From the NCBI RefSeq assembly GCF_025165815.1, contig NZ_JAFFZE010000009.1:434001-498000 (forward strand): DNA of 64,000 nucleotides, in the 5' to 3' direction. Origin of the DNA: Actinophytocola gossypii. GTDB taxonomy: Bacteria; Actinomycetota; Actinomycetes; Mycobacteriales; Pseudonocardiaceae. The notes under the pieces were generated by a model. It ran no database searches, had not been told where the DNA came from, and saw only the letters and a list, made by a program, of their open reading frames with translations. Of this stretch, positions 4,073 to 32,456 are shown in pieces. The position numbers and the translations under genes were made by a program. The first letter of the stretch is position 1. Every line of letters begins with the position of its first letter.

Positions 4073-4117
4073 TTGACACCGGTGTCCGCTCGCGCGCATA
4101 ATATGACGCTGACGTCA
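4073..4117 (+). promoter_or_regulatory. Divergent promoter with two TGAC-N6-GTCA operator copies
   Basis: On the + strand, TTGACA (4073-4078), an 18-bp spacer and CATAAT (4097-4102) form a good sigma-70-like promoter for the thiolase operon. A perfect TGAC-N6-GTCA palindrome (TGACGCTGACGTCA, 4104-4117) starts 1 bp after the -10. A one-mismatch copy (TGACACCGGTGTCC, 4074-4087) overlaps the -35, exactly 30 bp upstream of the first, on the same face of the helix. The layout suits repression of both divergent units by one TetR-type dimer. The regulator assignment is inference. Confidence 0.7.
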
Positions 4118-4141
4118 AAATCATACCGCAGGGAGCCAACG

Positions 4142-5341
4142 ATGGCCAAGCACGCCGTGATCGTCGACGCGGTCCGCACCCCGGGCGGCAAGCGGGGTGG
4201 CGGGCTCGGCGGCTGGCACGCCGCCGACCTGGCGGCCGAGGTGCTCACCGCCCTGCAACGCCGCAACGACCTCGACCCGGCACTGGTCGACGACGTCATC
4301 ATGGGCTGCGTCTCCCAGGTCGGCGACCAGAGCGTGAACGTCGCCCGCAACGCCGTGCTCGCCGCCGGCTGGCCGGAGACCGTGCCGGCCACCACCGTCG
4401 ACCGCCAGTGCGGGTCCTCGCAGCAGGCCGCGCACTTCGCCGCGCAGGGCGTGCTCGCCGGCGCCTACGACGTCGTGGTCGCCGCCGGCGTCGAGGTGAT
4501 GACCAGGACCCCGATGGGTGCCAGCTCCGCCGGCGGCCGGCCGTTCGGGCCCCGCGCCGAGGCGCGCTACGCCGACCGGGAGACGTTCGGGCAGCGGGGT
4601 CTGGTGCCGCAGGGTCTCGGCGCCGAGCTGATCGCCGAGCGCTGGGGCCTGTCCCGCACCGACCTGGACGCCTACGCGGCCCGCAGCCAGGCTCGCGCGG
4701 CCACGGCCAGGGACGAGGGCCGGTTCGACCGGGAGATCGTGCCGGTCGAGCGCCGCACCTGGGACGCGGAGACCCGGGAGGCGACCGCGCACGGCACCGA
4801 CGTCACCGCCGACGAGGGCATCCGCGAGTCCACAGTGGAGTCCCTGGCGAACCTCAAACCCGCGTTCCTGCCCGACGGCCGGATCACCGCCGCCAACAGC
4901 TCGCAGATCACCGACGGCGCGTCGGCCGTGCTGATCATGAGCGAGGAGAAGGCCACCGCGCTCGGGCTGACGCCGAGGGCGCGCTTCCACGCGTTCGCGC
5001 TGGCCGGCGACGACCCGGTGGCGATGCTGACCGCGCCGATCCCCGCGACCCGCCGAATCCTGGACCGCTCCGGGCTCACCATGGCCGACCTGGACCTGGT
5101 GGAGATCAACGAGGCGTTCGCGCCGGTGGTGCTGGCCTGGCAGCGCGAGCTGGGCGCCGACCCGGATCGGGTCAACGTGAACGGCGGCGCGATCGCGCTC
5201 GGTCACCCGCTCGGCGCGTCCGGCACCAAGCTGATGGCCACCCTGCTGTGCGAACTGGAACGCACCGGCGGCCGGTACGGGCTGCAGACCATGTGCGAGG
5301 GCGGCGGCCTCGCCAACGCGACGATCATCGAGCGCCTGTGA
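4142..5341 (+). CDS. Thiolase (acetyl-CoA C-acyltransferase)
   Basis: A 399-residue thiolase that cleaves a 3-ketoacyl-CoA in the last step of beta-oxidation. The nucleophilic Cys is C90 in TTVDRQCGSSQ. The conserved NVNGGAIALGHPLGASG block (~residue 353) and the C-terminal CEGGG motif (~residue 387) are present, so the catalytic Cys/His/Cys set looks complete. The ATG at 4142 has a GCAGGGAG ribosome site. It is the first gene of a five-gene operon (4.1-10.5 kb) with 4-bp overlaps throughout and is controlled by the operator pair upstream. The full family length argues for an active degradative thiolase, not an SCP2-type protein. Confidence 0.95.
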   Translation: MAKHAVIVDAVRTPGGKRGGGLGGWHAADLAAEVLTALQRRNDLDPALVDDVIMGCVSQVGDQSVNVARNAVLAAGWPETVPATTVDRQCGSSQQAAHFAAQGVLAGAYDVVVAAGVEVMTRTPMGASSAGGRPFGPRAEARYADRETFGQRGLVPQGLGAELIAERWGLSRTDLDAYAARSQARAATARDEGRFDREIVPVERRTWDAETREATAHGTDVTADEGIRESTVESLANLKPAFLPDGRITAANSSQITDGASAVLIMSEEKATALGLTPRARFHAFALAGDDPVAMLTAPIPATRRILDRSGLTMADLDLVEINEAFAPVVLAWQRELGADPDRVNVNGGAIALGHPLGASGTKLMATLLCELERTGGRYGLQTMCEGGGLANATIIERL

Positions 5342-6267
5342 CCCTGGCGGCACGGGTCGCCGAGGTACTCGGCCGCGACACCGTCCACCTGCGACGGTTG
5401 TCGGCCGGCGCGTCCCGGGAGACCTACGAGGTGTGTGCCGGGCCGGACACGTTCGTGCTCCAGCGGGAACGCGCGGGCGCGGGCCTCGGCGCCACCCGGG
5501 TCGACGAGCAGGTGCGGCTGCTGGCGGCGGTCGCCGACCGGGGCGTTCCGGTGCCCGAGATCGTCGCCTGGGACGCCACCGGCGATCGGCTCGGCGCGCC
5601 GTTCGTGCTCTCGGCGCACGTGCCGGGGGAGACGCTGCCCCGCCGGATCCTGCGCGCCCCCGACCTGGCCGGCGCCCGGGAGCGCTTCGCCGGCCAGTGC
5701 GGCGAGATCCTGGCGCGCCTGCACACCACACCGACCGACGAACTGTCCTGGTTGGACGCCGGCGACCAGCTGGAACGCGTGGTGGGCTGGATCGACGACA
5801 CCGCGGAGCCGCATCCCGCGTTCGAACTGGCCATCGCCTGGCTGCGTGCCAACCGCCCCCGGCCGGTCGAGCCGGTACTCGTGCACGGCGACTTCCGCAA
5901 CGGCAACCTGATCGTCGGCCGGGACGGGATCCGTGCGGTCCTGGACTGGGAGATGACCCACCTCGGCGACCCGGTCGAGGACCTGGCCTGGGTGTGCCTC
6001 AAGGCGTGGCGGTTCCGCGGCCCCGGCGAGGTCGGCGGCATGGGCGAGGTGCCCGACCTGCTCGACGCCTACGAGCGGGCGGGCGGCCGCGCGGTCGAGC
6101 CGGAGCGGCTGTTCTGGTGGCGGGTGCTCGGCACGCTCAAGTGGGGTGCGATCTGCCAGCGGCAGGCCGGGATCCACCTGTCCGGTGCCTCCCGGTCGGT
6201 GGAGCTGGCGGCCATCGGCCGACGCGTCTGCGAGACCGAGTACGACCTGTTGGAGCTGCTGCCATGA
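5338..6267 (+). CDS. Phosphotransferase (APH-like kinase) of the acyl-CoA dehydrogenase-associated type
   Basis: A 309-residue aminoglycoside-phosphotransferase-fold protein. The catalytic loop is VHGDFRNGN (H183, D185, N190) and the metal-binding segment is LDWEMTHLGDP (D203). The GTG start overlaps the thiolase stop (GTGA), implying translational coupling. In actinobacteria, members of this branch accompany a DUF6285 protein and an acyl-CoA dehydrogenase, as here. By analogy with ACAD10/11-type systems, the kinase may phosphorylate a hydroxyacyl-CoA before elimination. That role is inference from established ACAD10/11 work, not shown by this sequence. Confidence 0.9.
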   Translation: MTLAARVAEVLGRDTVHLRRLSAGASRETYEVCAGPDTFVLQRERAGAGLGATRVDEQVRLLAAVADRGVPVPEIVAWDATGDRLGAPFVLSAHVPGETLPRRILRAPDLAGARERFAGQCGEILARLHTTPTDELSWLDAGDQLERVVGWIDDTAEPHPAFELAIAWLRANRPRPVEPVLVHGDFRNGNLIVGRDGIRAVLDWEMTHLGDPVEDLAWVCLKAWRFRGPGEVGGMGEVPDLLDAYERAGGRAVEPERLFWWRVLGTLKWGAICQRQAGIHLSGASRSVELAAIGRRVCETEYDLLELLP

Positions 6268-7865
6268 CGCCGAACACCGACGAGCTGCTGGAGGCCGTCG
6301 TCGAGTTCCTGCGCGACGAGCTGTCCGACGCGGTTCCGGAGGAGCACCGGTTCCACCTGCGGGTCGCGGTCAACGTCCTGGAGATCGTCCGCCGCGAACT
6401 GGCCCTCGGTCCCGCCCACGAAGCCGCCCACGCCGAACGCCTGCGCGCGCTCGGCGTCACCGACGACGCCGAGCTGGCCCGCCGCATCCGCGCCGGCGAG
6501 ATCGACCCGGCCGCCGTCCGCGCGGCCGTCCTGGAGTCCGTCGTGGACAAGCTGCGGGTGGCCAACCCCCGTTACCCAAAGGACCGTGAGGCTTCCTGTC
6601 AACCTCCACAACCGCCACCTCAGGGGAACGTGACCCAACCCAGCCACAAGTACGTGACCCAGTCGAACGTGACTTCGCCAACGGGACCAACAGGGATGAA
6701 TTCGGAGAGGCGGAACAGTTTCGAGGTTCCGCCGCACGTGGCCGAGCGGGTGGCCGCGGTGCGCGCGTTCGTCGACGAGCAGGTGATCCCCGCCGAGCCC
6801 GGCCTGCACCACGGCCGTGTGGGGTTGCCCGCCCTCCAGGCCAGGGCGAAGGCGGCCGGTCTGTGGGCACTCGGGCACCCGGCCGAACTCGGCGGCGGCG
6901 GGATGCCGTTCGCCGACTACGTGTACGTCAACGAGGTCCAGGGCCGCAGCGAGTACGGCCAGTACGCCATGGGCACGCACAGCCTGCAGGACAGCCTGAT
7001 GCTGCACCGGCACGCCACCCCGGCCGTCCGCGACCGCTACCTGGCGCGGCTCGTCGCCGCCGAGATCACGCCCAGCTTCGCCATGACCGAGCCCGGACTG
7101 TCCAGTTCGGACCCCACCCAGCTGCGCACCACCGCCCGCCTGGACGGCGACGAATGGGTGGTCTCCGGCCGCAAGTGGTTCGTCACCGGCGCGCGGGACG
7201 CCGCGTTCACCACGGTCATGTGCCGCACCGAGCCTTCGGACACCTCCGCGCACCGGTCGTTCAGCATCATCCTGGTGCCCGCCGGCACCCCCGGCTTCCG
7301 CGTGCTGCGGGAGATCCCCGTGCTCGGCATCGACCACGACCACCACGAGTTGGAGTTCGACGAGGTGCGGGTCCCCGCCGACCACCTCGTCGGCCCGCGC
7401 GGCGGTGGTTTCCGGGTGGCGCAGGAGCGGCTCGGTCCCGGCCGGATCTTCCACGCCATGCGCTGGCTCGGCCAGGCCACCCGCGCCTACGAGCTGATGA
7501 CCGACCGCCTGCGCACGCGTACGGCGTTCGGCACCCCGCTGGCGGACAAGCAGCTGATGCAGCGGCACGTGTTCGAGGCGTACGCCGCGATCGCCGCGAG
7601 CCGGCTGCTCACCCTCGACGCGGCCAGGGTCCTCGACGCCGGCGGCGAGGCCAGGGTGGAGATCGGCATGCTCAAGGTCGTCGGCGCCAGGATGCTCGGC
7701 GACGTCGTCGACCGCGCGCTCCAGGTCTTCGGCGCCGAGGGCCTGTCCGACGACACCCCACTCGGGTTCATGTACCGCACCGCGCGCTTCGCCCGCATCT
7801 ACGACGGCCCCGACGAGGTGCACATCCAGTCGGTCGCCAAGGCCCTGCTGAAGGAGCGTCCGTGA
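6264..7865 (+). CDS. DUF6285 protein fused in frame to acyl-CoA dehydrogenase
   Basis: A single uninterrupted 533-codon frame. Residues 1-~110 are a DUF6285-like helical protein (MTPNTDELLEAVVEFLRDEL). Residues ~145-533 are a complete acyl-CoA dehydrogenase (TEPGLSSSDPTQLRTTARL, RTRTAFGTPLADKQLMQRH, YDGPDEVHIQSVAK). They are joined by a low-complexity linker rich in Gln, Pro and NVT/YVT repeats (about residues 110-144). DUF6285 and the dehydrogenase are normally separate adjacent genes. An alternative dehydrogenase start is ATG 6696, or GTG 6630 with AGGGG 3 bp upstream. A 1-nt indel near the CCCCC run at ~6570 would instead end DUF6285 at TGA 6587-6589. The start overlaps the kinase stop (ATGA). 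Confidence 0.85.
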   Translation: MTPNTDELLEAVVEFLRDELSDAVPEEHRFHLRVAVNVLEIVRRELALGPAHEAAHAERLRALGVTDDAELARRIRAGEIDPAAVRAAVLESVVDKLRVANPRYPKDREASCQPPQPPPQGNVTQPSHKYVTQSNVTSPTGPTGMNSERRNSFEVPPHVAERVAAVRAFVDEQVIPAEPGLHHGRVGLPALQARAKAAGLWALGHPAELGGGGMPFADYVYVNEVQGRSEYGQYAMGTHSLQDSLMLHRHATPAVRDRYLARLVAAEITPSFAMTEPGLSSSDPTQLRTTARLDGDEWVVSGRKWFVTGARDAAFTTVMCRTEPSDTSAHRSFSIILVPAGTPGFRVLREIPVLGIDHDHHELEFDEVRVPADHLVGPRGGGFRVAQERLGPGRIFHAMRWLGQATRAYELMTDRLRTRTAFGTPLADKQLMQRHVFEAYAAIAASRLLTLDAARVLDAGGEARVEIGMLKVVGARMLGDVVDRALQVFGAEGLSDDTPLGFMYRTARFARIYDGPDEVHIQSVAKALLKERP

Positions 7866-8980
7866 CGGGGCCGCTGGCGGGGATCCGCGTGGTCGAGCTG
7901 GCCGGGCTCGCGCCGGGGCCGTTCGCCGCGATGGTCCTCGCCGACCTCGGGGCCGACGTCGTGCGGGTCGACCGGCCGGGCACCACCCCCGACCCGACCG
8001 ACCTGCTCGCCCGCAACCGGACCGTCGTCGCCGCCGACCTCAAGGACCCCGACACCCGGGACCGCGTGCTGCGCCTGGTGGACCGCGCCGACGTCCTGGT
8101 CGAGGGCTTCCGGCCGGGCGTAACGGAACGGCTCGGGCTCGGCCCCGACGTGTGCCTCGCCCGCAACCCCGGGCTCGTCTACGGCCGGATGACCGGCTGG
8201 GGCCAGGACGGCCCGCTCGCCCCCACCGCCGGCCACGACATCAACTACATCTCCCTCGCCGGTGCCCTGCACCCGATCGGACCGGCCGGCGCCCCACCGG
8301 TGCCGCCGCTGAACCTGGTCGGCGACTTCGGCGGCGGCGGGCTCCTGCTCGCCCTCGGCTGCCTGGCCGCCCTGCTCGAACGCCGCCACTCGGGCGCCGG
8401 CCAGGTCGTCGACGCGGCCATGGTCGACGGCGCCGGCCTGCTCACCACCCACCTGCACATGCTGCTCGCCCAAGGGATGTGGCCCGGCGAGCGCGGCCGG
8501 AACCTGCTCGACGGCGGCGCCCCGTTCTACCGCGCCTACCCGACCTCCGACGGCCGGCACGTCGGCGTCGGCGCCATCGAGCCGGCCTTCTACGCCGCGC
8601 TCCTCGACGGACTCGGGCTCGCCGACGCCGGCCTGCCCGACCAGCTCGACCGCGACCGGTGGCCGGAGCTGGAGGCCGCGTTCGCGACCGCGTTCGCGAG
8701 CCGGACCAGGGACGAGTGGGAACGGGTCTTCGCCGGTACCGACGCGTGCGTGAGCCCGGTACTCACCCCCGCCGAGGCCACCACCCACCCACATCAGGCC
8801 CACCGCGGCGGGTTCACCACCGTCGCCGGCGTCCCACAGCCCGCGCCGGCGCCCCGGTTCGGCCGTAGCGCCACCGGCATTCCGACACCGGTCGCCCGCG
8901 CCACCGAGGACACGCTCGCGAGCTGGAGACTGTCCACTGAGGACGTCGAACGCCTCGTCGACGAGGGAGGAGACCCATGA
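7862..8980 (+). CDS. CaiB/BaiF family CoA transferase, alpha-methylacyl-CoA racemase-like
   Basis: A 372-residue class III CoA-transferase-fold protein. The segment TAGHDINYISLAGALHPIG matches the GHDINYxxLxG active-site block of alpha-methylacyl-CoA racemases, where the Asp acts as one of the two acid/base residues. MVLADLGADVVRVDRPG is the family N-terminal block. GTG 7862 overlaps the dehydrogenase stop (GTGA). A racemase here would allow beta-oxidation of 2-methyl-branched acids by converting (2R)- to (2S)-acyl-CoA, fitting a branched or isoprenoid-type substrate for the whole locus (inference). CoA transfer between acids remains possible. Confidence 0.9.
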   Translation: MTGPLAGIRVVELAGLAPGPFAAMVLADLGADVVRVDRPGTTPDPTDLLARNRTVVAADLKDPDTRDRVLRLVDRADVLVEGFRPGVTERLGLGPDVCLARNPGLVYGRMTGWGQDGPLAPTAGHDINYISLAGALHPIGPAGAPPVPPLNLVGDFGGGGLLLALGCLAALLERRHSGAGQVVDAAMVDGAGLLTTHLHMLLAQGMWPGERGRNLLDGGAPFYRAYPTSDGRHVGVGAIEPAFYAALLDGLGLADAGLPDQLDRDRWPELEAAFATAFASRTRDEWERVFAGTDACVSPVLTPAEATTHPHQAHRGGFTTVAGVPQPAPAPRFGRSATGIPTPVARATEDTLASWRLSTEDVERLVDEGGDP

Positions 8981-10506
8981 CGCGGATCAGCCTCGGCGAG
9001 TCCATCACCATGACCGCCAGGAACAAGCCCGACGCGCCCAGCTTCCTGTTCCCCGACGGCGGGCAGCACACCTTCGCCCAGACCAACGCGCGGGTCAACC
9101 GGCTGGTCTCCGCGCTGCGTGCCCAGGGCATCGGCCGGGGCGACCGGCTCGCGGTGTTCTCGCTGGACTCCCACCGCTACGTGGAGATCGTGCTGGCCGC
9201 GCTCAAGCTCGGCGCGGTGTACGTGCCGCTGAACTACCGGCTGCGCCGCGGCGAGATCGACACCCTCGTCGCCCGCGCCGCCCCCGTCGCGTTCTGCTAC
9301 GACGTGCGCTACACCGACCTGCTGGCCGGCCTGCCCGACGCGCACCCCAGCATCAAGCTGTTCCTCGCCATGAACGGCGACGAGCCCGAGTACGAGGCAC
9401 TGCTGGCCACCGGCACCGAGGCCGAACCGCCGGTGGTCGCCTCCGACGAGCACGTCATCGGGCTCGCGTTCACCTCCGGCACCACGGGGCTGCCCAAGGC
9501 CGTGCTCCAGTCGCAGCGGATGATGAAGGCCATCGTCACCGAACAGGTCGTCGAGTACCGGATGCGGCCGGACGACGTCCGCTACGCCGCCGCGCCCACC
9601 TTCCACATCACCGGGATCTGCCAGCTGCTGATGTGTGTCGCCTACGGCACCCCGTCGCTGATCCTGCCGCAGTTCGACCCGCGCACCACCCTGGACTTCC
9701 TCGCCGCCGACCGGCTCACCGCGGTGTTCCTGGTGCCCACGATGATCAGCACGGTCCTCGCCCTGCCGGACGTGCACGACCACACCTACGACCGGCTGCG
9801 CCTGATGTACTACGGCGCCTCGGCGATGTCGCCGAACCTGTTGCGCCGCGCCATGGACACGTTCCGGTGCGACTTCCTCAACGCGTTCGGCGCCGGCACC
9901 GAGGCCGGCCTGCAGGCCGTGCTCACCCCTGAGGACCACCGGGCCGCGCTGGACGGTCGCCCGGAGCTGCTCGGGTCGATCGGCAAACCCGCGTTCGGAG
10001 TCGCGCTGCGGATCGTCGACGAGGACCTGAACGAGGTGCCGACCGGCGAGGTCGGCGAGATCGCCACCCGCAGCGACATGGTGATGGACGGCTACCTGGA
10101 GATGCCGGAGGAGACCGAGCGGGCGCTGCGCGGCGGCTGGTTCCGGGCGGGCGACCTCGGCTACCTGGGCGAGAACGGCTACCTCTACCTGGCCGGGCGC
10201 AAGAAGGACATGATCGTGCGCGGCGGGGAGAACATCTTCCCGATCGAGATCGAGTCGGTGCTCGCCGAGCACCCGGCGGTCGCGCAGGCCGCGGTTGTCG
10301 GGGTCGCCGACGAGCACTGGAGCGAGGTCGTGCGGGCGTGGGTGACGCTGCGGGACGGCGCGACCGCCACCGCCGAGGAACTCGCCGGGCACTGCGCGCA
10401 GCGGCTCGCGAAGTTCAAGGTGCCGGCCGAGTTCCGGTTCGTCGACGCGTTGCCGACCAACGCCAGCGGCAAGATCCTCAAGCGCGAACTGCGTACCTGG
10501 AACTGA
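8977..10506 (+). CDS. Acyl-CoA synthetase (AMP-forming), class I adenylate-forming
   Basis: A 509-residue ligase that activates a carboxylate to acyl-CoA through acyl-AMP. Motifs: AFTSGTTGLPKAV (ATP phosphate loop, ~residue 165), GAGTEAG (adenine pocket), WFRAGDLGYLGENGYLYLAGRKKDMI (hinge), and NASGKILKREL with the catalytic Lys near the C-terminus. ATG 8977 overlaps the preceding stop (ATGA). It is close in sequence to the ligase at 37.3 kb (same NRLVSALRA/NRLAHALAA, ILPQFD and VPTMI blocks), so the two may act on related substrates. It is the last gene of the thiolase operon. Confidence 0.94.
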   Translation: MTRISLGESITMTARNKPDAPSFLFPDGGQHTFAQTNARVNRLVSALRAQGIGRGDRLAVFSLDSHRYVEIVLAALKLGAVYVPLNYRLRRGEIDTLVARAAPVAFCYDVRYTDLLAGLPDAHPSIKLFLAMNGDEPEYEALLATGTEAEPPVVASDEHVIGLAFTSGTTGLPKAVLQSQRMMKAIVTEQVVEYRMRPDDVRYAAAPTFHITGICQLLMCVAYGTPSLILPQFDPRTTLDFLAADRLTAVFLVPTMISTVLALPDVHDHTYDRLRLMYYGASAMSPNLLRRAMDTFRCDFLNAFGAGTEAGLQAVLTPEDHRAALDGRPELLGSIGKPAFGVALRIVDEDLNEVPTGEVGEIATRSDMVMDGYLEMPEETERALRGGWFRAGDLGYLGENGYLYLAGRKKDMIVRGGENIFPIEIESVLAEHPAVAQAAVVGVADEHWSEVVRAWVTLRDGATATAEELAGHCAQRLAKFKVPAEFRFVDALPTNASGKILKRELRTWN

Positions 10507-10519: not shown

Positions 10520-10533
10520 TGACATCATCGTCA
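10520..10533 (+). promoter_or_regulatory. TGAC-N6-GTCA operator upstream of tetR
   Basis: The perfect palindromic arms TGAC/GTCA (TGACATCATCGTCA) lie in the 70-bp gap between the ligase stop and the TetR start, about 44 bp before the ATG. Together with the copies at 4.1, 11.3, 23.0 and 32.4 kb, this is the expected position for autoregulation by the TetR at 10577. Confidence 0.65.
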
Positions 10534-10576: not shown

Positions 10577-11251
10577 ATGAGTCCACGCGGGGGAAGTCCG
10601 AAGGGACGGGCGGTCATCGCCGCGTCCGCGTCGCAGAAGGAGCGGCGCGGCGTCGGCCCGATGACGCCCAAGGGGCGGGAGCGGCGCACCGAGATCCTGC
10701 GCGCCGCGCGCACGGTGTTCGAGGAACGCGGTTTCCTGGAGACCAGGGTGGCCGACATCGTCGCCGCGGCCGATGTCGCGCAGGGCACCTTCTACACCTA
10801 CTTCGACTCCAAGGAAGCCGTCTTCGCCGAGGTGGCCCAGCAGGTCATCGAGACGATGATGGACGACCTGCACACCGACTACGTCTCCGACGTCGAGCCG
10901 GTCGAGCGCATCCGTCGCGCGATGGTCCGGTTCGTCGACGCGTTCCGGCCGAACGCGGTGATGATCGGCCTCATCGAGCAGGTCGGCACGTTCACCCCGG
11001 AGATGCGCCGGCTCCGCCTCCGCCTCCGCGAGTCCTTTGTGGACCGATCGGCGCGCGGGATCAAACGGATGCAGGAGGACGGGATCGCCGACCCCGGCGT
11101 CGATCCGGTGATGCTCGCCGAGGTGCTCGGCGCCATGGTGGACCAGACCTGCTACATCTGGTTCTTCCTGGGCAAGCCGTTCGACACCGAGTCCGTCGTG
11201 GAGTCGCTGACCACCGTCTGGGCCCGCGGGATCGGCGTCAAGGGCGCCTGA
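10577..11251 (+). CDS. TetR-family regulator, candidate master regulator of the catabolic island
   Basis: A 224-residue TetR/AcrR protein. After a basic, disordered N-terminal ~30 residues comes the helix-turn-helix (RRTEILRAARTVFEERGFLETRVADIVAAADVAQGTFYTYFDSKEAVF, ~residues 35-82), followed by a ligand-binding helical domain. The ATG is preceded by ACGGAGGAT. A TGAC-N6-GTCA palindrome lies in its own promoter and another directly follows the gene, in the promoter of the next operon. TetR dimers bind palindromes of this size, and acyl-CoAs are common inducers in beta-oxidation regulons. I therefore infer that it is the repressor of this island; the sequence alone does not prove this. Confidence 0.9.
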   Translation: MSPRGGSPKGRAVIAASASQKERRGVGPMTPKGRERRTEILRAARTVFEERGFLETRVADIVAAADVAQGTFYTYFDSKEAVFAEVAQQVIETMMDDLHTDYVSDVEPVERIRRAMVRFVDAFRPNAVMIGLIEQVGTFTPEMRRLRLRLRESFVDRSARGIKRMQEDGIADPGVDPVMLAEVLGAMVDQTCYIWFFLGKPFDTESVVESLTTVWARGIGVKGA

Positions 11252-11261
11252 TTTCCGATAT

Positions 11262-11275
11262 TGACATCGGTGTCA
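11262..11275 (+). promoter_or_regulatory. TGAC-N6-GTCA operator of the nine-gene beta-oxidation operon
   Basis: TGACATCGGTGTCA lies within the extended palindromic context TTGACATCGGTGTCAA (11261-11276). It sits in the 36-bp gap between tetR and the first enoyl-CoA hydratase gene, 12 bp before GTG 11288. No convincing -35 is visible, so the transcription start is unclear. Confidence 0.65.
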
Positions 11276-11287: not shown

Positions 11288-12097
11288 GTGCGAGGGGTGA
11301 CGAACGACCCCGACGCCGTGCTCCTCGAACGCAGTGACGGCGTCGCGACGATCACCCTGAACCGCCCCCGGGTGAAGAACGCCATGACCTGGGACGGCTG
11401 GACCGGGCTGCGGGACGCGGTCCGCGCGATCGACCCGCTCACCGACCGGGTGGTCGTCGTGACCGGTGCCGGCGAGGACTTCTGCGCCGGCGCCGACCTG
11501 ACCGGACCGGCGACCGGCGGCCACCAGGTCGACGACATGCGGATCGTCGGCGACGCCTGCCTCGCGCTGCACCGGCTGCCGATACCGACGATCGCCCGGG
11601 TGGACGGGGTCGCGGTCGGCGCCGGGATGAACCTGGCGCTGGTGTGCGACTTCGTGGTCGCCGCCGCGCGCGCCCGGTTCTCCGAGATCTTCGTCAAGCG
11701 CGCGATGTCGGTGGACTTCGGCGGCTCCTGGTTGCTGCCCCGCCTGGTCGGCCTGCGCCGCGCCAAGGAACTCGTGCTGCTCGGCGACATCATCGACGCC
11801 GCCAAGGCCGACGAGCTTGGCCTGCTGCACCGGGTCGTCGAGCCGGCCGACCTGGACAAGGTCGTCGCCGAGCTGGCCGACCGGCTCGCCGCCGGACCCC
11901 GGCTGGCGATGGCCGGCTCCAAGGCCCTGCTCAACGACGCGTTCGACGTGACGCTGGAACGCGCGCTCGACGAGGAGGCCAGGGCCCAGGCCGTCAGCGT
12001 CTCGTCTCCCGACGCCGCCGAGGCGATCGAGGCCTTCCTGCACAAGCGGACGCCGGACTTCCGGCGGTCCGGCACCACGAACGAGGAGGAGCGATGA
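11288..12097 (+). CDS. Enoyl-CoA hydratase/isomerase (crotonase family)
   Basis: A 269-residue crotonase-fold protein. The oxyanion-hole segments are [10 protein letters not shown] and [13 protein letters not shown]. Both Glu positions of classical hydratases appear to be kept (ARFSEIF and AKELVLLGD), so water addition to an enoyl-CoA is plausible. The start is GTG 11288; GTG 11297 ([15 protein letters not shown]) is also possible, since neither has a strong ribosome site. It is the first gene of a tightly coupled operon (11.3-19.6 kb) directly downstream of the TGAC-N6-GTCA operator. Confidence 0.92.
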
Positions 12098-12846
12098 GGG
12101 TCGAGGGCAGTGTCGCGCTGGTGACCGGTGGCGCGTCCGGGCTCGGGCTCGCGACGGCCAACCGGCTGGCGAAGGCCGGCGCCAGGGTGGTGGTCCTGGA
12201 CCTGCCCACCTCCGCCGGCGCCGAGGTCGAGACCGACGCGATCCGGTTCGTACCCGGCGACGTCACGTCCGCCGACGACGTCACCCGCGCACTGGACGCC
12301 GCCGCCGAACTCGGCCCGCTGCGCGTCACGGTCAACTGCGCCGGCATGGGCGTCCCGGCCAAGACGCTCGGCAAGCACGGCCCGGCCGAGATGGACGGGT
12401 TCGTCCGCACGGTGACGGTGAACCTGTTCGGCACGTTCAACGTCATCCGCCTGGCCGCCGCGCGGATGGCCGCCACCGAACCGGTGGACGGTGAGCGCGG
12501 CGTCGTCGTGAACACCGCGTCGGTGGCGGCCTTCGAGGGGCAGGTCGGGCAGGCCGCCTACTCCGCGTCCAAGGGCGGCATCGTCGGCATGACGCTGCCG
12601 GTGGCCCGCGACCTCGCCTCGTCCGGCATCCGCGTGGTCACCATCGCCCCCGGCATCTTCGACACCCCGCTGCTCGGCACCCTGTCCGAGGAGGTCCGGG
12701 AGTCGCTCGGCCGCCAGGTCCCGCACCCCAGCCGGCTCGGACAGCCCGCCGAGTACGCCGCCCTGGTCGCGCACGTCGTGGAGAACGCGATGATCAACGG
12801 CGAGACGATCCGGCTGGACGGCGCGATCCGGATGGCGCCCCGGTGA
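12094..12846 (+). CDS. Short-chain dehydrogenase, probable 3-hydroxyacyl-CoA dehydrogenase (HSD10-like)
   Basis: A 250-residue classical SDR. NAD-binding TGGASGLG (residues ~10-17), NCAGMG, the catalytic Ser in [11 protein letters not shown] and YSASK (Tyr/Lys). The segment [32 protein letters not shown] and the C-terminal [21 protein letters not shown] match the type-10 17beta-HSD/3-hydroxyacyl-CoA dehydrogenase branch. It probably supplies the third beta-oxidation step, for which this locus has no FadB-type fusion. The start overlaps the hydratase stop (ATGA). Confidence 0.92.
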
Positions 12847-13952
12847 GTGCCGACCCGTTCCGGTGGACGCCGGAGCACGAGGAGTTCCGCGCGGTCCTGC
12901 GCAAGCTGACCGAGTCCCGCACCCCGCTGGCCTGCGCTCCCGCCCCCGCGTCGGCCGACCAGCGCGAACGGGAGCTGTGGCGGGCGTGGGCCGACGAGCT
13001 GGGCCTGCCCGGTCTCGTGGTGCCGGAGTCGCACGGCGGCGCCGGCTTCTCCCGCCTGGAGCTGGCGATCGCGGCCGAGGAGCTGGGCCGCGCGGTCGCC
13101 GGCGGACCGCTGTTCGCCTCGGCCGTGCTCGCTACCGAGGCGCTGCTCGCCACCGGCCCGGACGCCGCGGCCGCCGAGATCCTGCCCGCCCTCGCCGGAG
13201 GAACCTCGGTCGCCGCGCTCGCCGTGGTCGAGGAATCCCACCGCTGGGCGGCCGCCGACGTGCGGACCCGCGTCGGAGACGGCCGGCTGACCGGGGTGAA
13301 GCACGCCGTGCTCGGCGCCGCCGACGCGGACGTGCTCGTGGTCGCCGCCCGCGAGGACGCCGGCGTGTCGCTGTTCCTGGTCGAACCGGGCACTGGTGTC
13401 GAGATCGTGCCGCTGGCGGTACTCGACCCGAGCCGCCCGGCCGCCCGGGTCGACCTGACCGGCGCACCGGCCCGCCGGATCGGCGTCGCGGGGGAGGGCT
13501 GGCCCGCGGTCGAACGCGCGCTGGAGGCCGGTGCGGTGTTCCTGGCCGCCGAACAGGTCGGCGGCAGCCGCGCGCTGCTCGACGCCGCCGTGGAGCACGC
13601 CAACACCCGGGTGCAGTTCGGCCGGCCGGTCGGGCAGTTCCAGGGCGTCAAGCACCGGCTCGCCGACATGGCCGTACGCACCGAGCTGGCCGCCGCGGCC
13701 GCGACCTGGGCGGCCTGGCAGGAACCCGGGACCGACACCGCCCGCCTCGGCGCCGCCGTCGCCCGAGCGCACTGCGCCGACGCCTACCTGGAGACGGCGC
13801 TCGACGCCATCGGCGTGCACGGCGGCATGGCGATCACCTGGGAGCACCACGCGCACCGGTACCTGCGCCGCGCCCGCGCCGACCTCGCGGTCCTGCCCGG
13901 ACCGGCCGAGCAGCGCCGCCTGCTGGAGACCATGATCGGGACGGGGGTCTGA
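12843..13952 (+). CDS. Acyl-CoA dehydrogenase, short subunit of heteromeric pair 1
   Basis: A 369-residue acyl-CoA dehydrogenase-fold protein with a divergent middle domain and no recognisable SEPxAGSD flavin/substrate block. It keeps the C-terminal [22 protein letters not shown] and the [21 protein letters not shown] segment. It is followed 2 bp later by a 410-residue partner that does carry the flavin block. This arrangement matches the alpha2beta2 dehydrogenases known from actinobacterial steroid side-chain degradation (FadE28-FadE29 type). The GTG start overlaps the SDR stop. Confidence 0.9.
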
Positions 13953-13954
13953 GC

Positions 13955-15187
13955 ATGCCGCTCGACGTCACCGGGCTCGGCCTGGACGCGCTCGCCGCCC
14001 GGGTCCGGGCCTGGCTCGAGGACCACCTGCCGGCGCACTGGCGGGACGCCGCGCTCACCGGCGACCGGCACGCGCTCGCCGCGATCGCCCGCGACGACGC
14101 CGTCACCCGCGCCTGGTACGCCGAACTCGGCGACTCCGGGCTCGCCACCGCAGGCTGGCCGGTCGAGCACGGCGGCCTCGGCCTGGCCGCGGACGGGGTC
14201 GCCGTGGTCGCCGACGAGCTGGCCCGCCTGCACGCCGGTCGTCCGATGAGCGACTTCGTCGGTGTCGCCCTCGCCGGGCCGACGATCGTCGAATGGGGCA
14301 CCGACGAACAGAAACGGCGGTTCCTGCGCCCACTCGCGCTCGGCGAGCACCGCTGGTGCCAGCTGTTCAGCGAGCCAGGCGCCGGCTCCGACCTCGCCGC
14401 GCTCACCACCCGCGCCACCCGCTGCGCCGACGGAGACTGGGTGGTCGACGGGCAGAAGGTGTGGAGCTCGTTCTCCGACCGCGCCGACTACGGCCTGCTG
14501 ATGGCCCGGACCGACCCGGGTCGGGCCAAGCACCGCGGCATCACCTACTTCCTGCTCGACATGCGCTCGCCCGGCGTCGAGGTGCGGCCGTTGCGCCAGC
14601 TCAACGGGCAGTCCGAGTTCGGCGAGGTGTTCCTCACCGACGTCATGGTGCCCGACACCGACCGGCTCGGCCGGGAGAACCAGGGCTGGGCGGTCGCCAT
14701 GACCACGCTCGCGCAGGAACGCAGCGGCCTGTCCGGGCGTCCCGGCGTCGGACCCGGTCGCGCCGACGCGCTCGCCGCCCGCGCCCGGGACACCGGCGCC
14801 TGGGACGACCCGCTGCTGCGCGACCGGATCCTGCGGGCGTTCGTGGCCGAACGGGTACTCCAGATGACCACCGTGCGCGCGTTCGCCGACCTCGGCCGCC
14901 GCGAACCCGGCGCGGAGGGTTCGATTCGCAAGCTCGCGCACGGCACGCTGGACGCCACGCTCGGCCTGCTCGCCACCGAGGTCGAACCGGGCGGCGCGGT
15001 CGCGCACGACCCGGCCGACGGGGACGCGGAGGCGGCGCTGGACGCGTTCCTGTCCGGGAAGATCCTGTCGATCGCGGGCGGCACCAGCGAGATCCAGCGC
15101 AACATCATCGGCGAGCGGGTACTCGGCCTGCCCCGCGACCGCGACCCCTACGCCGACGTCCCGTTCGCGGAGCGTCCCCGTGGCTGA
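13955..15187 (+). CDS. Acyl-CoA dehydrogenase, long subunit of heteromeric pair 1
   Basis: A 410-residue acyl-CoA dehydrogenase. The flavin/substrate block is WCQLFSEPGAGSDLAALTTRA (~residue 132), followed by GQKVWSSFSD and FLLDMRSPGVEVRPLRQLNG. The C-terminal GGTSEIQRNIIGERVLG contains the segment where the catalytic Glu usually lies. It probably forms a heterotetramer with the preceding 369-residue protein and makes the 2,3-double bond in a bulky acyl-CoA. The ATG at 13955 lies 2 bp after the previous stop. Its closest relative in the window is the dehydrogenase at 15995. Confidence 0.92.
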   Translation: MPLDVTGLGLDALAARVRAWLEDHLPAHWRDAALTGDRHALAAIARDDAVTRAWYAELGDSGLATAGWPVEHGGLGLAADGVAVVADELARLHAGRPMSDFVGVALAGPTIVEWGTDEQKRRFLRPLALGEHRWCQLFSEPGAGSDLAALTTRATRCADGDWVVDGQKVWSSFSDRADYGLLMARTDPGRAKHRGITYFLLDMRSPGVEVRPLRQLNGQSEFGEVFLTDVMVPDTDRLGRENQGWAVAMTTLAQERSGLSGRPGVGPGRADALAARARDTGAWDDPLLRDRILRAFVAERVLQMTTVRAFADLGRREPGAEGSIRKLAHGTLDATLGLLATEVEPGGAVAHDPADGDAEAALDAFLSGKILSIAGGTSEIQRNIIGERVLGLPRDRDPYADVPFAERPRG

Positions 15188-15986
15188 GCTGCCGTCGACG
15201 GAACGCGTCCGGGTCCACCCGGCCGGGGACGGCGTGGTCGAGGTCGAACTGCACCGGCCCGAGCGCCTCAACGCCATGTCGGTCGAGCTGATCGACGACC
15301 TGCACGCGGTGCTGGCCGCGCTCGCCGGTCGCACCGACGTCCGGGTCGTGGTGCTCACCGGCGCCGGCCGCGGCTTCTGCGCCGGGCTCGACCTGCACGA
15401 CTACGGCGAAGCGGGCCCCGCCGAGACCCCGCAGGCCCGCTTCGCCCTCCAGGAGCGCATCGCCGCCCTGGTCACCGGTCTGCGCGACCTGCCGCAGGTG
15501 GTGGTCGCCGCCGTGCACGGCGCGGCCGCAGGGGGCGGGCTCGCGCTCGCGCTCGGTGCCGACGTCCGAGTCGCCGGCCCGGCCGCCCGGTTCGCGGTGT
15601 CGTTCGTGCGGGTCGGTCTGTCCGGCGCGGACATCGGCGTCAGCTGGCTGCTGCCCCGGCTGGTCGGCGCGTCCGCCGCGTTCGAGCTGCTGCTCACCGG
15701 GCGCGCGGTCGACGCGGACGAGGCCGCCCGCATGGGGCTGGTCACCCGGGTCGCCGACGACCCCCGCGCCGCCGCGCACGAGGTCGCGGCCGAGGTGCTG
15801 GCGAACAGCCCGATGGGGGTGCGGATGACCAAGCAGGTGATGTGGAGCCAGCTCGAGGTCGGCAGCCTGCGCGCCGGCATCGACCTGGAGAACCGGACGC
15901 AGATCATGACCAGCTTCACCCGCGACCACGTCGAGGCCGTGGACGCGTTCGCCGATCGCCGCCCACCCCGCTTCGAGGACCGCTGA
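15180..15986 (+). CDS. Enoyl-CoA hydratase/isomerase family protein
   Basis: A 268-residue crotonase-fold protein with oxyanion-hole blocks GRGFCAGLDL and HGAAAGGGLALALGADVRV. At the first catalytic Glu position it reads AVSF instead of a Glu, while the second (AFELLLTGR) is kept. The active site therefore differs from the hydratase at 11288, and isomerase or hydrolase activity is possible. The GTG start lies 8 bp inside the preceding dehydrogenase gene. It is part of the same operon. Confidence 0.9.
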   Translation: MAELPSTERVRVHPAGDGVVEVELHRPERLNAMSVELIDDLHAVLAALAGRTDVRVVVLTGAGRGFCAGLDLHDYGEAGPAETPQARFALQERIAALVTGLRDLPQVVVAAVHGAAAGGGLALALGADVRVAGPAARFAVSFVRVGLSGADIGVSWLLPRLVGASAAFELLLTGRAVDADEAARMGLVTRVADDPRAAAHEVAAEVLANSPMGVRMTKQVMWSQLEVGSLRAGIDLENRTQIMTSFTRDHVEAVDAFADRRPPRFEDR

Positions 15987-15994
15987 GGAGGACC

Positions 15995-22709: not shown

Positions 22710-23045
22710 AGGGAGTCCTTTCTCGAGGAAGGAAGCCGTCGACGCCCCGGGACGAACGCACCGGAAGGCGGACAGGTGGAACCAGGGCCCGAACGAGGCC
22801 GGAAAGGGGGATGGCGTACGGCACGACGACGCGGTATCACGACCGGAACGCCGAGAGGGGCGTTCAGGTCAGCGCAGGGTCAGCGCTCGCGTCGGAAAGA
22901 GCCGGTGCCGGAATCTCACACGCCAACGACCGTAGCCGACGCCCCGGCCGGCCGCATCCGGTTTTCCCCTGCGTGCTTGACAAACGGTGCGCCAAGATAT
23001 GACATAGACGTCAGATTCAACTTTTGGTGACGGGAGTGCGCGACG
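22710..23045. other. 336-bp divergent intergenic region between hflX and the HpaB-family gene
   Basis: No gene is supported here. The hflX-side leader holds a short inverted repeat (GAACGCC, 22846-22852, and GGCGTTC, 22859-22865, 6-nt loop) that could form a hairpin in the hflX leader RNA. The right end carries TTGACA (22977-22982), an A/T-rich CAAGATAT (22993-23000) and a TGAC-N6-GTCA palindrome (23000-23013), i.e. the promoter/operator of the HpaB-family gene. The rest is featureless GC-rich sequence. Confidence 0.55.
23000..23013 (+). promoter_or_regulatory. TGAC-N6-GTCA operator of the HpaB-family gene
   Basis: TGACATAGACGTCA directly follows a CAAGAT -10-like hexamer (22993-22998) with a 1-bp gap, the same geometry as at 4.1 and 32.4 kb. 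The spacing to the upstream TTGACA is only 10 bp, so the true -35 is uncertain. It lies 32 bp before ATG 23046. Confidence 0.65.
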
Positions 23046-24425
23046 ATGCTCACGGGTCGGCAGTACAAGGAGTCGCTCAGGGACGGGCGGAAGGTCTACT
23101 TCGAGGGCCGGCTCGTCGAGGACCTGGAGTCCGAGCCCGCTCTCGCCGTCCCGCTGGAGGCGATCGCGGCCGGGTACGACAAGTACCACTCCGCCGATCC
23201 CGACGCGGTGAACCCGCTGACCGTCGCCCCGCGCAGCGCGGACGAGCTGCGCGAGCGCATCCCGGTCATCACCGAGATGGACCTGCTGCTCAACGTCACC
23301 TACCAGTCCCTGATGACGCTACTGGTCGCCGCCGGCCGGCTCGCCGACCACGCACCCGAGTTCGTGCCGAGGATCAACGCCTACGTCGAGGACGCCCGCC
23401 GCCGGGACATCCGGATCACCGAGTGCATCACCGACGCCAAGGGCGACCGCAGCCTCCCGCCCGGCAAGCAGTCGGACCCGGACGCCTACGTGCGCGTCGT
23501 CGAGCGCCGTGCGGACGGCGTGGTGATCCGCGGCGCCAAGCTGCACATCAGCGCCGCCGCGTTCGGGCACGACCTGATGGTCATGCCGACCAAGTCCATG
23601 AAGCCGGGCGAGGAGGACTACGCCATCGCCTGCGCGGTCCCGGTCAACGCGCCCGGCGTGCACATCACCAACACCACCTACCACCCGCGCGGCGGCGACC
23701 CGCGCGACTTCCCGGTCAGCTCCAGGGAGAGCATGCCGGACAGCGTGGTCATCTTCGACGACGTGTTCGTGCCGACCGAGCGGGTCTTCCTCGACGGGCA
23801 GACCGCCCAGGCCGCGGTGTTCGCGCACTCGCTCGGCCTGTGGGAGCGCCTCGGCGGGGTGTCCTTCATGGTCAACCAGGCCGACGAGCTGGTCGGGCTC
23901 GCGCACCTGATCGCCGAGGCCAACGGCACCGGCCGGGTCTCCCACGTCCGGGAGAAGATCGACGAGATGATGATCCACGCGACGCTGCTGCGCGCGGGTC
24001 TGGAGGCGGCGCTGCTGCACGCGCACGCCACCCCGGACGGCTACTACTACCCGGACGACATGTTCACCAACGTCGCCAAGTACCACGGCGCGGCGAACTT
24101 CAACACGATGGTCCGGCACCTGCACGACATCGCCGGTGGCGCCGTGGTCACCGCGCCGTCGATGTCCGACTTCGACAACCCGGACCTCAAACCGTTGCTG
24201 GACAAGTACCTTGGCACCGGCCCGGACGTCTCGGGGGAGTACCGCTCGAAGCTGTTCCACGCGATCCGGGACACCACCGCCGACGCCTACGGCGGCTGGC
24301 ACCAGGTCACCAACCTGCAGTCCGGCGGCGGCCTCTACGCCCAGCGCCTGGTGACCCGCAAGAACTACGACATCCAGCGCGCCCGCGCGCTGGCACTGAA
24401 GGCGGCCGGGCTCTCGGGAGCCTGA
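23046..24425 (+). CDS. HpaB/PvcC-family protein (4-hydroxyphenylacetate 3-monooxygenase / 4-hydroxybutyryl-CoA dehydratase superfamily)
   Basis: A 459-residue acyl-CoA dehydrogenase-like flavoprotein of the HpaB superfamily. The blocks TDAKGDRSLPP, DPDAYVRVVERRADGVVIRGAKLHISAAAFGHDLMVMPTKSM and KIDEMMIHATLLRAGLEAALLHA strongly recall 4-hydroxybutyryl-CoA dehydratase. The Cys residues that bind the 4Fe-4S cluster in that enzyme appear to be absent: only C132-like ECIT and a CAVP Cys are seen, and none around residue 100 or in the ~290-300 region. It is therefore more likely a flavin-only hydroxylase or a redox-neutral isomerase/dehydratase variant. No flavin reductase gene lies next to it. It is controlled by its own TGAC-N6-GTCA site and so probably belongs to the island's pathway. 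Confidence 0.82.
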   Translation: MLTGRQYKESLRDGRKVYFEGRLVEDLESEPALAVPLEAIAAGYDKYHSADPDAVNPLTVAPRSADELRERIPVITEMDLLLNVTYQSLMTLLVAAGRLADHAPEFVPRINAYVEDARRRDIRITECITDAKGDRSLPPGKQSDPDAYVRVVERRADGVVIRGAKLHISAAAFGHDLMVMPTKSMKPGEEDYAIACAVPVNAPGVHITNTTYHPRGGDPRDFPVSSRESMPDSVVIFDDVFVPTERVFLDGQTAQAAVFAHSLGLWERLGGVSFMVNQADELVGLAHLIAEANGTGRVSHVREKIDEMMIHATLLRAGLEAALLHAHATPDGYYYPDDMFTNVAKYHGAANFNTMVRHLHDIAGGAVVTAPSMSDFDNPDLKPLLDKYLGTGPDVSGEYRSKLFHAIRDTTADAYGGWHQVTNLQSGGGLYAQRLVTRKNYDIQRARALALKAAGLSGA

Positions 24426-24893: not shown

Positions 24894-24929
24894 CAGCGGA
24901 CCATATCGCGGCGGCTCGCGGCCGGGCCG

Positions 24930-29097: not shown

Positions 29098-29119
29098 GCC
29101 GGAACGATATATCCGCCCT

Positions 29120-29132
29120 TTGAACTGTTCAA
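29120..29132 (-). promoter_or_regulatory. 13-bp palindrome TTGAACTGTTCAA upstream of the ligase
   Basis: A perfect odd-centred palindrome (TTGAAC-T-GTTCAA) in the 42-bp gap between MarR 2 and the ligase at 27568. It overlaps the position expected for the -35 of a promoter whose TATATC -10 (29103-29108 region, minus strand) lies near the start codon. It is a likely repressor site, perhaps for one of the MarR proteins (inference). Confidence 0.5.
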
Positions 29133-29139
29133 TAGCCGT

Positions 29140-29604: not shown

Positions 29605-29615
29605 CGCCCCAACCT

Positions 29616-29636
29616 AGCAGAACAGAGATATCTGCT
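29616..29636 (+). promoter_or_regulatory. Inverted repeat AGCAGA-N9-TCTGCT between MarR 2 and cassette 2
   Basis: Arms AGCAGA (29616-29621) and TCTGCT (29631-29636) flank an inner AGATATCT palindrome (29625-29632). The element is AT-rich compared with its surroundings and lies 12 bp from the marR start and 51 bp before the ligase ATG. Size and position fit a MarR dimer site controlling both divergent genes. Confidence 0.6.
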
Positions 29637-29687
29637 ATACAAACCATTGAAAGCGCGTGTATTGGCCGAGAGGTAGGTGCGACGACG

Positions 29688-31148: not shown

Positions 31149-32401
31149 CCCGGGTACTGGTCACGGGCCAGGGCGCCGTGTCGCCGCTGGGCATCGGCGT
31201 CGAACCGATGCTCGCCGGTCTCTGGGCCAACGAGGTCGCCATCGCGCCCGCGCCCTGGGCGCGCACCGAGGCCGACCCGTTCGCCTGGTGGGCCGTCGTG
31301 CCCGGGTTCGATCCGCACGACTGGATGGACGAACGCGTGGTCGCCGGCACCGACCTGTTCGCCCAGTTCGCGCTCGCCGCCGCGGTGCAGGCCGTCGCCG
31401 ACGCCGGGCTGGACCGGCTCGTCCCGGAGCGCACCGCGGTCGTGCACGGCACCAGCATCGGCGGCGGCCGGGCGCTGCTCAAGGCCCAGCACCGGTACGA
31501 GACCGGGGGAGCGGCCGCGGTCGAGCGCAAGACCATGATCCAGATCTGGCCGAACATGGCCGCCGCGCAGATCGCCATGCGCTGGGGCCTGCACGGTCCA
31601 CAGCTGACCGTCTGCACCGCCTGCGCGTCCGCGCTCGACGCGATCGGGCTGGCCCGTACCCTGATCCGCTCCGGCCAGGTCGACGTCGCCGTGGTCGGCG
31701 GCACCGAGGGCGGCCTGCCACTGGCCAACGGCGAGGCGGACGGCGACTTCGTGCCAGCCATGTACGTCGGCCAGGCCGCGTACGGGATGACCACCGCCGA
31801 GCGCGATCCCACTCGCGCGAGCCTCCCGTTCGACGTGCACCGTTCCGGGATCGTCACTGGCGAGGGCTCCGCCGCGCTCGTGCTGGAGTCCGCCGAGCAC
31901 GCCCGTGCCCGCGGTGCCCGGGTGCTCGGCGAGGTCGCCGGATTCGCCTCGCTGGCCGACGGCCACCACCCGTCCTCGCCGAACCCGGAGGGTACCTGGG
32001 AGGCCCGCGCCATGCGGCTCGCCGCCGACGACGCCGGGGTGCCGCCGGACGCGATCGGCGCACTGGTCGCACACGCCACCGCCACGCCGAAGGGCGACGC
32101 CGCCGAGATCAACGCGATCAACGCCGTGCACCGCGACCGTCCGGTTCCGCTGCCCGTGGCATCCCTCAAGGGCCACCTCGGGCACACCGGCGCCGCGTCC
32201 GGCGCGATGGGCGTGCTGGCCGCCGCGCACGCGATGCGCACCGGCTCGTTCCCCAACACCGCCGGCACCCGCGACGTCGACCCCGCCGTCGAGTTCGACG
32301 TCGTCACCGGCGAGCCCGTGTCCCTGGACACGGAGTGCGTCCAGGTCAACGCGTTCGGCTTCGGCGGCCAGAACGCGTCGGTGGTCGTCCGCCGTCCCTG
32401 A
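31145..32401 (+). CDS. Stand-alone beta-ketoacyl synthase (cassette 2)
   Basis: A 418-residue KAS with Cys160 (TACASA), His310 (AHATATPKGD), His347 (GHLGHTGAASG) and Lys342 all present. It is paralogous to the 26350 protein along its full length, including KTMIQIWPNMAAAQIAMRWGLHGP and ADGHHPSSPNPEGTWEARAM, so the two cassettes probably arose by duplication. It lacks an ACP, KR or AT partner. Its gene is coupled to the ligase by a 4-bp overlap. The role is unknown; a condensing step in lipid synthesis or a Claisen/retro-Claisen step on CoA esters are both possible. Confidence 0.92.
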   Translation: MTRVLVTGQGAVSPLGIGVEPMLAGLWANEVAIAPAPWARTEADPFAWWAVVPGFDPHDWMDERVVAGTDLFAQFALAAAVQAVADAGLDRLVPERTAVVHGTSIGGGRALLKAQHRYETGGAAAVERKTMIQIWPNMAAAQIAMRWGLHGPQLTVCTACASALDAIGLARTLIRSGQVDVAVVGGTEGGLPLANGEADGDFVPAMYVGQAAYGMTTAERDPTRASLPFDVHRSGIVTGEGSAALVLESAEHARARGARVLGEVAGFASLADGHHPSSPNPEGTWEARAMRLAADDAGVPPDAIGALVAHATATPKGDAAEINAINAVHRDRPVPLPVASLKGHLGHTGAASGAMGVLAAAHAMRTGSFPNTAGTRDVDPAVEFDVVTGEPVSLDTECVQVNAFGFGGQNASVVVRRP

Positions 32402-32412
32402 TGGAGTGAGCC

Positions 32413-32456
32413 TTGACACGGGCTCCAGCGCCACGCAAGATTTGACATCGACGTCA
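32413..32456 (+). promoter_or_regulatory. Promoter with TGAC-N6-GTCA operator of the Liv-type transporter operon
   Basis: TTGACA (32413-32418), a 17-bp spacer and CAAGAT (32436-32441), followed after 1 bp by TGACATCGACGTCA (32443-32456; TTGACATCGACGTCAA when extended). This is the clearest promoter/operator in the window. The palindrome would cover the transcription start. It is 63 bp before the substrate-binding protein start. Confidence 0.72.

Follow-up and report, generated by a model that had tools for sequence, protein, structure and literature searches.

The stretch analysed here, called the window below, is 64,000 bp of the Actinophytocola gossypii contig NZ_JAFFZE010000009.1 (positions 434,001 to 498,000, forward strand). 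It contains an island of catabolic genes in which a 14-bp palindrome, TGAC-N6-GTCA, stands in front of five transcription units. One of these is the gene for a TetR-family protein, and the palindrome is very probably the operator of that protein. An initial annotation, made from the letters alone, had placed perfect copies at 4104, 10520, 11262, 23000 and 32443, in intergenic regions of the island. They are all found there, and all five still lie in gaps between genes after re-annotation of the window by codon-position guanine-plus-cytosine content, open reading frame (ORF) starts and Pfam. The putative operator sites, a likely promoter box and the genes that follow them are:

4073..4078, plus strand: TTGACA, likely -35 box of the thiolase promoter (from sequence; TTGACA recurs upstream of homologous sites)
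4104..4117: site 1, TGACGCTGACGTCA, 1 bp past the -10-like CATAAT (4097-4102), upstream of the thiolase ATG at 4142
4142..10506, plus strand: operon 1 (Pfam, overlapping gene junctions), with thiolase 4142-5341, APH-type kinase 5338-6267, acyl-CoA dehydrogenase (ACAD) with an N-terminal DUF6285 domain 6264-7865, CoA-transferase III 7862-8980 and acyl-CoA ligase 8977-10506 (all Pfam)
10520..10533: site 2, TGACATCATCGTCA, upstream of tetR, which suggests autoregulation
10577..11251, plus strand: tetR, the proposed regulator, 224 amino acids, TetR_N and EthR_C domains (Pfam)
11262..11275: site 3, TGACATCGGTGTCA, with TTGAC...GTCAA flanks, upstream of operon 3
11297..19631, plus strand: operon 3 (Pfam, synteny), with enoyl-CoA hydratase (ECH) 11297-12097, short-chain dehydrogenase/reductase (SDR) 12094-12846, ACADs 12843-13952 and 13955-15187, ECH 15180-15986, ACADs 15995-17149 and 17142-18116, and ECHs 18106-18873 and 18870-19631
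23000..23013: site 4, TGACATAGACGTCA, 1 bp past CAAGAT, with TTGACA (22977-22982) at a non-standard distance
23046..24425, plus strand: HpaB-family flavoenzyme (4-hydroxyphenylacetate 3-hydroxylase / vinylacetyl-CoA isomerase superfamily)
32443..32456: site 5, TGACATCGACGTCA, with TTGAC...GTCAA flanks, 1 bp past CAAGAT, with TTGACA 17 bp further up
32519..38801, plus strand: operon 5, with a Peripla_BP_6 lipoprotein, the substrate-binding protein (SBP), 32519-33763, a fused BPD_transp_2 permease 33785-35773, two LivG/LivF-type ATPases 35763-36533 and 36526-37260 (named by position and sequence) and an acyl-CoA ligase 37260-38801 (Pfam for SBP, permease and ligase; synteny in relatives for SBP, permease and ATPases)

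TGAC-N6-GTCA occurs six times in the window, against 0.82 (standard deviation 1.0) in shuffled sequence, and none of 100 shuffles reaches six. The island, a 28.5-kb span, has 832 bp between genes, with 708 positions able to hold a 14-mer. Five of these hold a site, where 0.008 are expected. When all 256 four-base half-sites are tried with 13 spacer lengths (0-12) in these gaps, the highest count, five, is that of TGAC with a 6-base spacer, and the runner-up has two. The sixth copy in the window, at 59119, was absent from the initial annotation. It reads TGACAACGACGTCA (59119-59132) and lies 10 bp upstream of an LPMO_10 gene (59143-59784), distant from the island; it is chance or an unrelated use.

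The consensus first proposed, TGACRTCGAYGTCA, is too narrow, as it fits exactly at 32443 only and the other four sites are one or two mismatches off. The flanks said to extend the palindrome are indeed TTGAC...GTCAA at 11262 and 32443, but not at the other sites. Each promoter in the window has one palindrome, and only the site at 4104 has overlapping one-mismatch neighbours (4074, 4110).

The pattern was also counted over the whole genome (G000, 7.38 Mb), where TGAC-N6-GTCA is found 70 times and the reversed-pattern control 29 times. This is about 0.6 per 64 kb, in line with the chance rate of roughly one per 65 kb given earlier. The pattern TGACRNNNNYGTCA has 24 copies: five are those of the island, one is the copy at 59119, and 18 lie beyond the window. 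Of those 18, eight are in coding calls and ten are called intergenic, although three of the ten overlap a stop or start codon. For each of the ten at least one neighbouring gene was scanned, and no acyl-CoA catabolic gene was among these neighbours, which were MerR, GDSL, GNAT plus HhH-GPD, GH9, LmeA, roadblock, multicopper oxidase, MlaE, an M14 peptidase and one protein without a family. In the genome-wide scan that the initial annotation had proposed, the copies outside the window are thus coding or beside scanned genes of other kinds. This fits a local regulon; a genome-wide one was rejected, as none of the scanned neighbours is acyl-CoA catabolic.

It could be argued that a short palindrome has simply clustered by chance in AT-richer intergenic DNA, given that there are 70 copies in the genome and that over half of the outside TGACRNNNNYGTCA copies are called intergenic. 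However, in 20,000 shuffles within the island gaps the maximum was two sites, reached once, compared to the five observed. The sites are also conserved in other genera at orthologous promoters, which already refutes the chance reading; its probability is close to nil.

Clusters equivalent to this one in Pseudonocardia, Nocardioides, Actinomadura and others encode orthologues of the TetR protein (50-82% identity) and have the motif upstream of the same genes. Same-family orthologues are 50-57% identical, and their cluster holds genes for HpaB, SBP, permease, LivG/LivF, two ACADs, ECHs and ligase. With an HpaB alignment, 37 loci were detected in the genome collection. For the TetR gene, 19 of these genomes were searched, and in some further ones it was read off the locus itself. 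For eight loci the TetR status is unassigned (L113, L127, L128, L130, L131, L132, L135, L140), and two with a 38-39% TetR paralogue (L136, L138) were kept out of the Fisher table. The low-GC loci L129, L131 and L132, for which gene calling did not work, were counted as wholly intergenic; there is no site in them either.

Intergenic TGACRNNNNYGTCA is found in 16 of 17 TetR-positive HpaB loci and in none of 10 TetR-negative ones (Fisher p = 1.3e-6, with kinship ignored). In the seventeenth, Actinomadura L104, the TGACRNNNNYGTCA site overlaps an ECH stop codon. The expectation that the motif would lie upstream of orthologous genes and track with the TetR gene is therefore borne out. Among the negatives, four mycobacterial loci (L120, L122, L123, L125) carry the most weight: their HpaB is 72-74% identical, and neither TetR nor motif is present. 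Tamaricihabitans and a Pseudonocardiaceae metagenome-assembled genome (MAG), with HpaB at 71-72%, have both.

Among gapped palindromes sought in 13 TetR-positive loci other than the window, TGAC-N6-GTCA also ranks first (12/13). It is found in one of 11 loci without a close TetR.

The sites recur at the same genes. Besides the window, a site lies upstream of the thiolase gene in a Streptosporangiaceae MAG and three Nocardioides, and upstream of the first ECH gene in the same MAG and Nocardioides carbamazepini. For HpaB this is the case in Actinomadura, two Nocardioides, Geodermatophilus, the Pseudonocardiaceae MAG, an Actinomycetes MAG and four Pseudonocardia. The SBP gene has a site in nine genomes, including the window. 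The 14-mer of site 4, TGACATAGACGTCA, is identical upstream of hpaB in Actinomadura L104. In Geodermatophilus the cluster and tetR lie within 73 kb, and seven of the 14 genome-wide TGACRNNNNYGTCA sites are in this stretch.

Some data weigh against this picture. The number of TGACRNNNNYGTCA copies per genome is 14-31 in 12 TetR-positive relatives and 27-38 in the four TetR-negative mycobacteria, and Rhodococcoides has 28, which is not above its reversed control of 29. Since totals are not higher with the TetR gene, the signal is in the position and not in the number, and the total motif count fails as a marker of TetR presence. Five close TetR genes of Pseudonocardia-type loci (L017-L021) are without a perfect copy within 1.5 kb. 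Among the TetR-negative loci, L105 is a 6.4-kb MAG contig, and those besides it and the four mycobacterial ones are more distant (HpaB 60-62%).

The motif common to the relatives is TGACR-N4-YGTCA, with core TGACRYCGRYGTCA. When the 94 half-sites of a 47-site table are symmetrised, TGAC is followed by G or A (92/94), mostly T (52) and mostly C (64), or TGACRYC/GRYGTCA. Against a strict purine at position 5 are the two half-sites in the table with a C there, and also L161:17042 (TGACACGGGAGTCA), a cluster site outside the table with a T on one side. The table is hand-picked. It omits coding hits, near-duplicate genomes and the other family loci L056, L059, L066, L067, L068 and L072, as well as two sites at a second Nocardioides TetR, two upstream of an SDR gene in Geodermatophilus (L158), and L160:15622, L164:1460 and L161:17042. 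Three of its sites (L117:9816, L161:13654, L162:14669) are inside ORFs of a simple gene caller, and L104:5652 overlaps a stop codon.

It is at least conceivable that another regulator of the island (MarR1 at 24435, MarR2 at 29140, or the TetR at 1889) binds the palindrome, and that the 10577 TetR only travels along. MarR1 does adjoin hpaB in the window, L104 and L105, with a weak match (38%) near hpaB in L133. Yet among loci with the motif near HpaB, MarR1 has a match in L104 only, and MarR2 or the 1889 TetR in none. The two divergent MarR gaps of the window lack the site, while six genomes (the window, Actinomadura, Rhodococcoides, two Nocardioides and Geodermatophilus) have one upstream of tetR itself. 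The three proteins were rejected as binders, and the idea is very improbable.

The choice of the 10577 TetR as regulator, already made in the initial annotation, is supported by its co-occurrence with the motif, by sites at the same genes and by a conserved recognition helix, VAQGTFY[T/S]YF, retained in 17 of 19 close TetRs. The protein scores 59 bits for PF00440 (TetR_N; cut-off 24) and 36 bits for the EthR_C ligand domain (cut-off 27), and has an all-helical fold with a C-terminal ligand domain. It is 22-23% identical to EthR. The PfmR structure 3vpr matches by sequence (2.6e-9) and by fold; we take PfmR and Thermus thermophilus TTHB023 to be one protein. The operator had not been recognised as that of KstR, KstR2 or FasR. 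The KstR2 motif is different, and the protein is far below the NCBIfam cut-offs for KstR (NF033703, 29.1 bits against 280) and FasR (NF053731, 41.6 against 330). It also stays far below those for FadR of bacilli (NF053878, 47.5 against 200), MftR (TIGR03968, 44.9 against 224.9) and RutR (TIGR03613, 39.2 against 368). The operator of Escherichia coli RutR, TTGACCANNTGGTCAA, has the same frame, a C at position 5 and an unrelated regulon; no paper printing this sequence was found in the open-licence PMC literature.

Operators with this frame are not new. The comparisons here concern the excerpts available of the cited papers. SbtR of Thermus thermophilus (TTHA0167), of the TetR family, has a 14-bp palindrome, TGACTGGCCAGTCA / TGACYRNNYRGTCA (PMC4948773), with the outer half-sites and length of the window sites. 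It differs in host and regulon, and its position 5 is a pyrimidine, against a purine in 92 of the 94 half-sites here. TTHB023, also a TetR protein, has the high-affinity site CTGACCGATCGGTCAG and sites at fatty acid biosynthesis promoters (PMC7022988). It shares the TGAC-N6-GTCA frame but has a pyrimidine at position 5, a CGATCG centre and another regulon. The window sites thus have the half-sites and 6-bp gap of such TGACY-N4-RGTCA operators, but not the position-5 pyrimidine. What had been described as a new-looking operator is new in its inner bases and regulon, whereas its frame has been published for SbtR and TTHB023.

Other known regulators are further away. The site of Thermus FadR (TTHA0101), TTRNACYNRGTNYAA, differs (PMC5597230). 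KstR and KstR2 are likewise TetR-type repressors with 14-bp palindromes over catabolic clusters, but the KstR2 motif is AnCAAGnnCTTGnT (PMC3068626). The EthR operator is larger, more complex and multi-copy, without a classical palindrome (PMC4482099); nothing of that type is found in the window, where each promoter has a single 14-bp palindrome. McbR of Corynebacterium (TAGAC-N6-GTCTA, PMC2723105) has equal half-site spacing, but other half-site bases and an unrelated regulon. The MftR motif T-N2-GGCA-N5-TGCC-N2-A (PMC8728441) does not match. The excerpts print no operator sequence for QsdR (PMC6262395) and contain nothing comparable for PccD (PMC11596240). Within open-licence PMC literature, no paper was found with the literal motif in several spellings, nor, among the titles listed, one on an HpaB/ACAD cluster of this type. 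The system is very probably a TetR regulon of local extent that controls itself and has an inner operator code of its own; the TetR family and the operator frame were already known.

The position of the sites within promoters suggests how the protein might act. Repressor operators are commonly on or just behind the -10 box. The initial annotation had the site start 1 bp after a -10 hexamer at 4.1, 23.0 and 32.4 kb. That distance is correct in all three cases, but the hexamer at 23000 is doubtful as a true -10. With hexamers chosen by eye, the order at 4104 is TTGACA, 18 bp, CATAAT, one base and the operator, and at 32443 TTGACA, 17 bp, CAAGAT, one base and the operator, both with normal -35 spacing. 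Against this stands the promoter at 23000, where only 10 bp separate TTGACA from CAAGAT; given this short distance, the real -10 there may overlap the operator. No TTGACA is present in the 45 bp upstream of 10520 or 11262.

In the table of 47 oriented homologous sites, which come from 15 genomes, TTGACA is found at most 50 bp upstream of 24, where 0.3 are expected from shuffling. It starts at -28 to -31 in 11 of these and at -35 in eight. The one-mismatch copy noted at 4074 does exist, but it begins inside the TTGACA at 4073-4078 and is best read as part of a -35 box. As this TTGACA recurs in relatives mostly without the remaining palindrome, 4074 was rejected as a second operator.

Taken as a repressor, a dimer of the TetR protein would bind the palindrome next to or across the -10 box and block initiation at five promoters: those of the thiolase/kinase/ACAD/CoA-transferase/ligase operon, tetR, the ECH-SDR-ACAD operon, the HpaB-like gene and the ABC-importer/ligase operon. 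The five units probably act together on one carboxylic acid, which they would import, activate with CoA and degrade in the manner of beta-oxidation. The repressor would most likely be released when a CoA thioester formed along the pathway fills its EthR/FadR-like pocket. It is thus highly probable, judging from sequence data, that TGACR-N4-YGTCA is the operator of the autoregulated repressor at 10577-11251, with a pathway acyl-CoA as the probable inducer.

The same protein may instead be an activator or dual regulator that represses at some promoters only. In Pseudonocardia two sites lie about 100 bp apart between the divergent HpaB and ACAD_B genes, and FasR, a TetR protein, is named an activator in NCBIfam. 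However, the site abuts or overlaps the presumed -10 at 4104, at 32443 and in the thiolase promoters of relatives, where a bound protein would block polymerase. Activation or dual control is therefore unlikely, and plain repression is preferred.

The cluster probably takes up and breaks down an organic acid. The nearest PDB relatives of HpaB are vinylacetyl-CoA isomerase and then 4-hydroxyphenylacetate hydroxylases. Aligned with 1u8v and 6vjr, the HpaB-like protein lacks Cys and His at the positions where the Fe-S ligands of 4-hydroxybutyryl-CoA dehydratase appear to lie. No flavin reductase family turned up among the island proteins scanned. The nearest PDB entries of ACAD_C are 4x28 and 6wy8/6wy9, which we take to be steroid side-chain ACADs, and the SBP weakly matches HAAT-family proteins (1e-4). 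As to the substrate, a bulky or cyclic acid is a reasonable guess and nothing beyond that. The kinase at 5338 and the ACAD with the DUF6285 domain after it (5338-7865) are reminiscent of the 4-hydroxyacid (levulinate lva) route.

Tentatively, and with somewhat less than even confidence, the TetR/operator pair may mark an undescribed pathway of scattered actinobacteria, in which a bulky cyclic acid is broken down in the form of its CoA thioester by means of a HAAT-type importer, acyl-CoA ligases, paired steroid-side-chain-related ACADs and an HpaB-like flavoenzyme. What the repressor senses would then be a pathway-specific CoA ester, and not fatty acyl-CoA in general. The analysis offers a concrete regulator-operator pair for a catabolic cluster, with a 14-bp code kept across several actinobacterial orders, and adds a purine-5 specificity to the TGAC-N6-GTCA operators of Thermus TetR proteins. 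With the motif, pathway genes close to this TetR can be gathered from other genomes; the repressor could act as a sensor to find the substrate.

The regulon was first put at about 28 kb. It is not one block: the MarR-flanked part from 24.4 to 32.4 kb has no site, and the transporter operon extends to 38.8 kb. The region 24435-32401 holds two MarR genes, three ligases and two ketoacyl-synthase-like genes. Each MarR gene is divergent from an acyl-CoA ligase gene, which is followed by a ketoacyl-synthase-like gene, and the gaps between them (24894-24929 and 29605-29687) are those without TGAC-N6-GTCA. These divergent gaps suggest separate control, and the region is apparently a separate regulatory unit inside the island. 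Also within the island and outside the regulon are two minus-strand genes (19633-22709), for an HflX-type GTPase (Pfam) and a protein with a Walker-like GDNGSGKS motif.

The cluster nearest to that of the window is in Actinomadura (TetR 81%, HpaB 88%). No TetR orthologue of at least 49% is present in the five other same-genus genomes listed. Together this suggests horizontal transfer of 4059-38801. A search of plasmid records with HpaB returned only 32-33% relatives.

Related TetR genes have palindromes of their own. Nocardioides carbamazepini has a second TetR (L111:20036-20867; 51%, helix VSQGTFYTYF), preceded by TTGACATGGCTGTCAA and TGACATGGCCGTCAA, two sites close together. A sister clade with helix VAYGSFYTYF (L035:1421-1434, L036, L037, L038, L032, L151) has a conserved palindrome, YTGACTTGACAGTCAKRTCAA, at tetR. 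Its TGACTTGACAGTCA was rejected as the same operator, as the context YTGACTTGACAGTCAKRTCAA is a longer palindrome with a different centre. Finally, G269 has two TetR genes in tandem (L067:9312-10638), each sharing about 44% identity with that of the window, and TTGACGCCGACGTCAA stands close by, at 10718.

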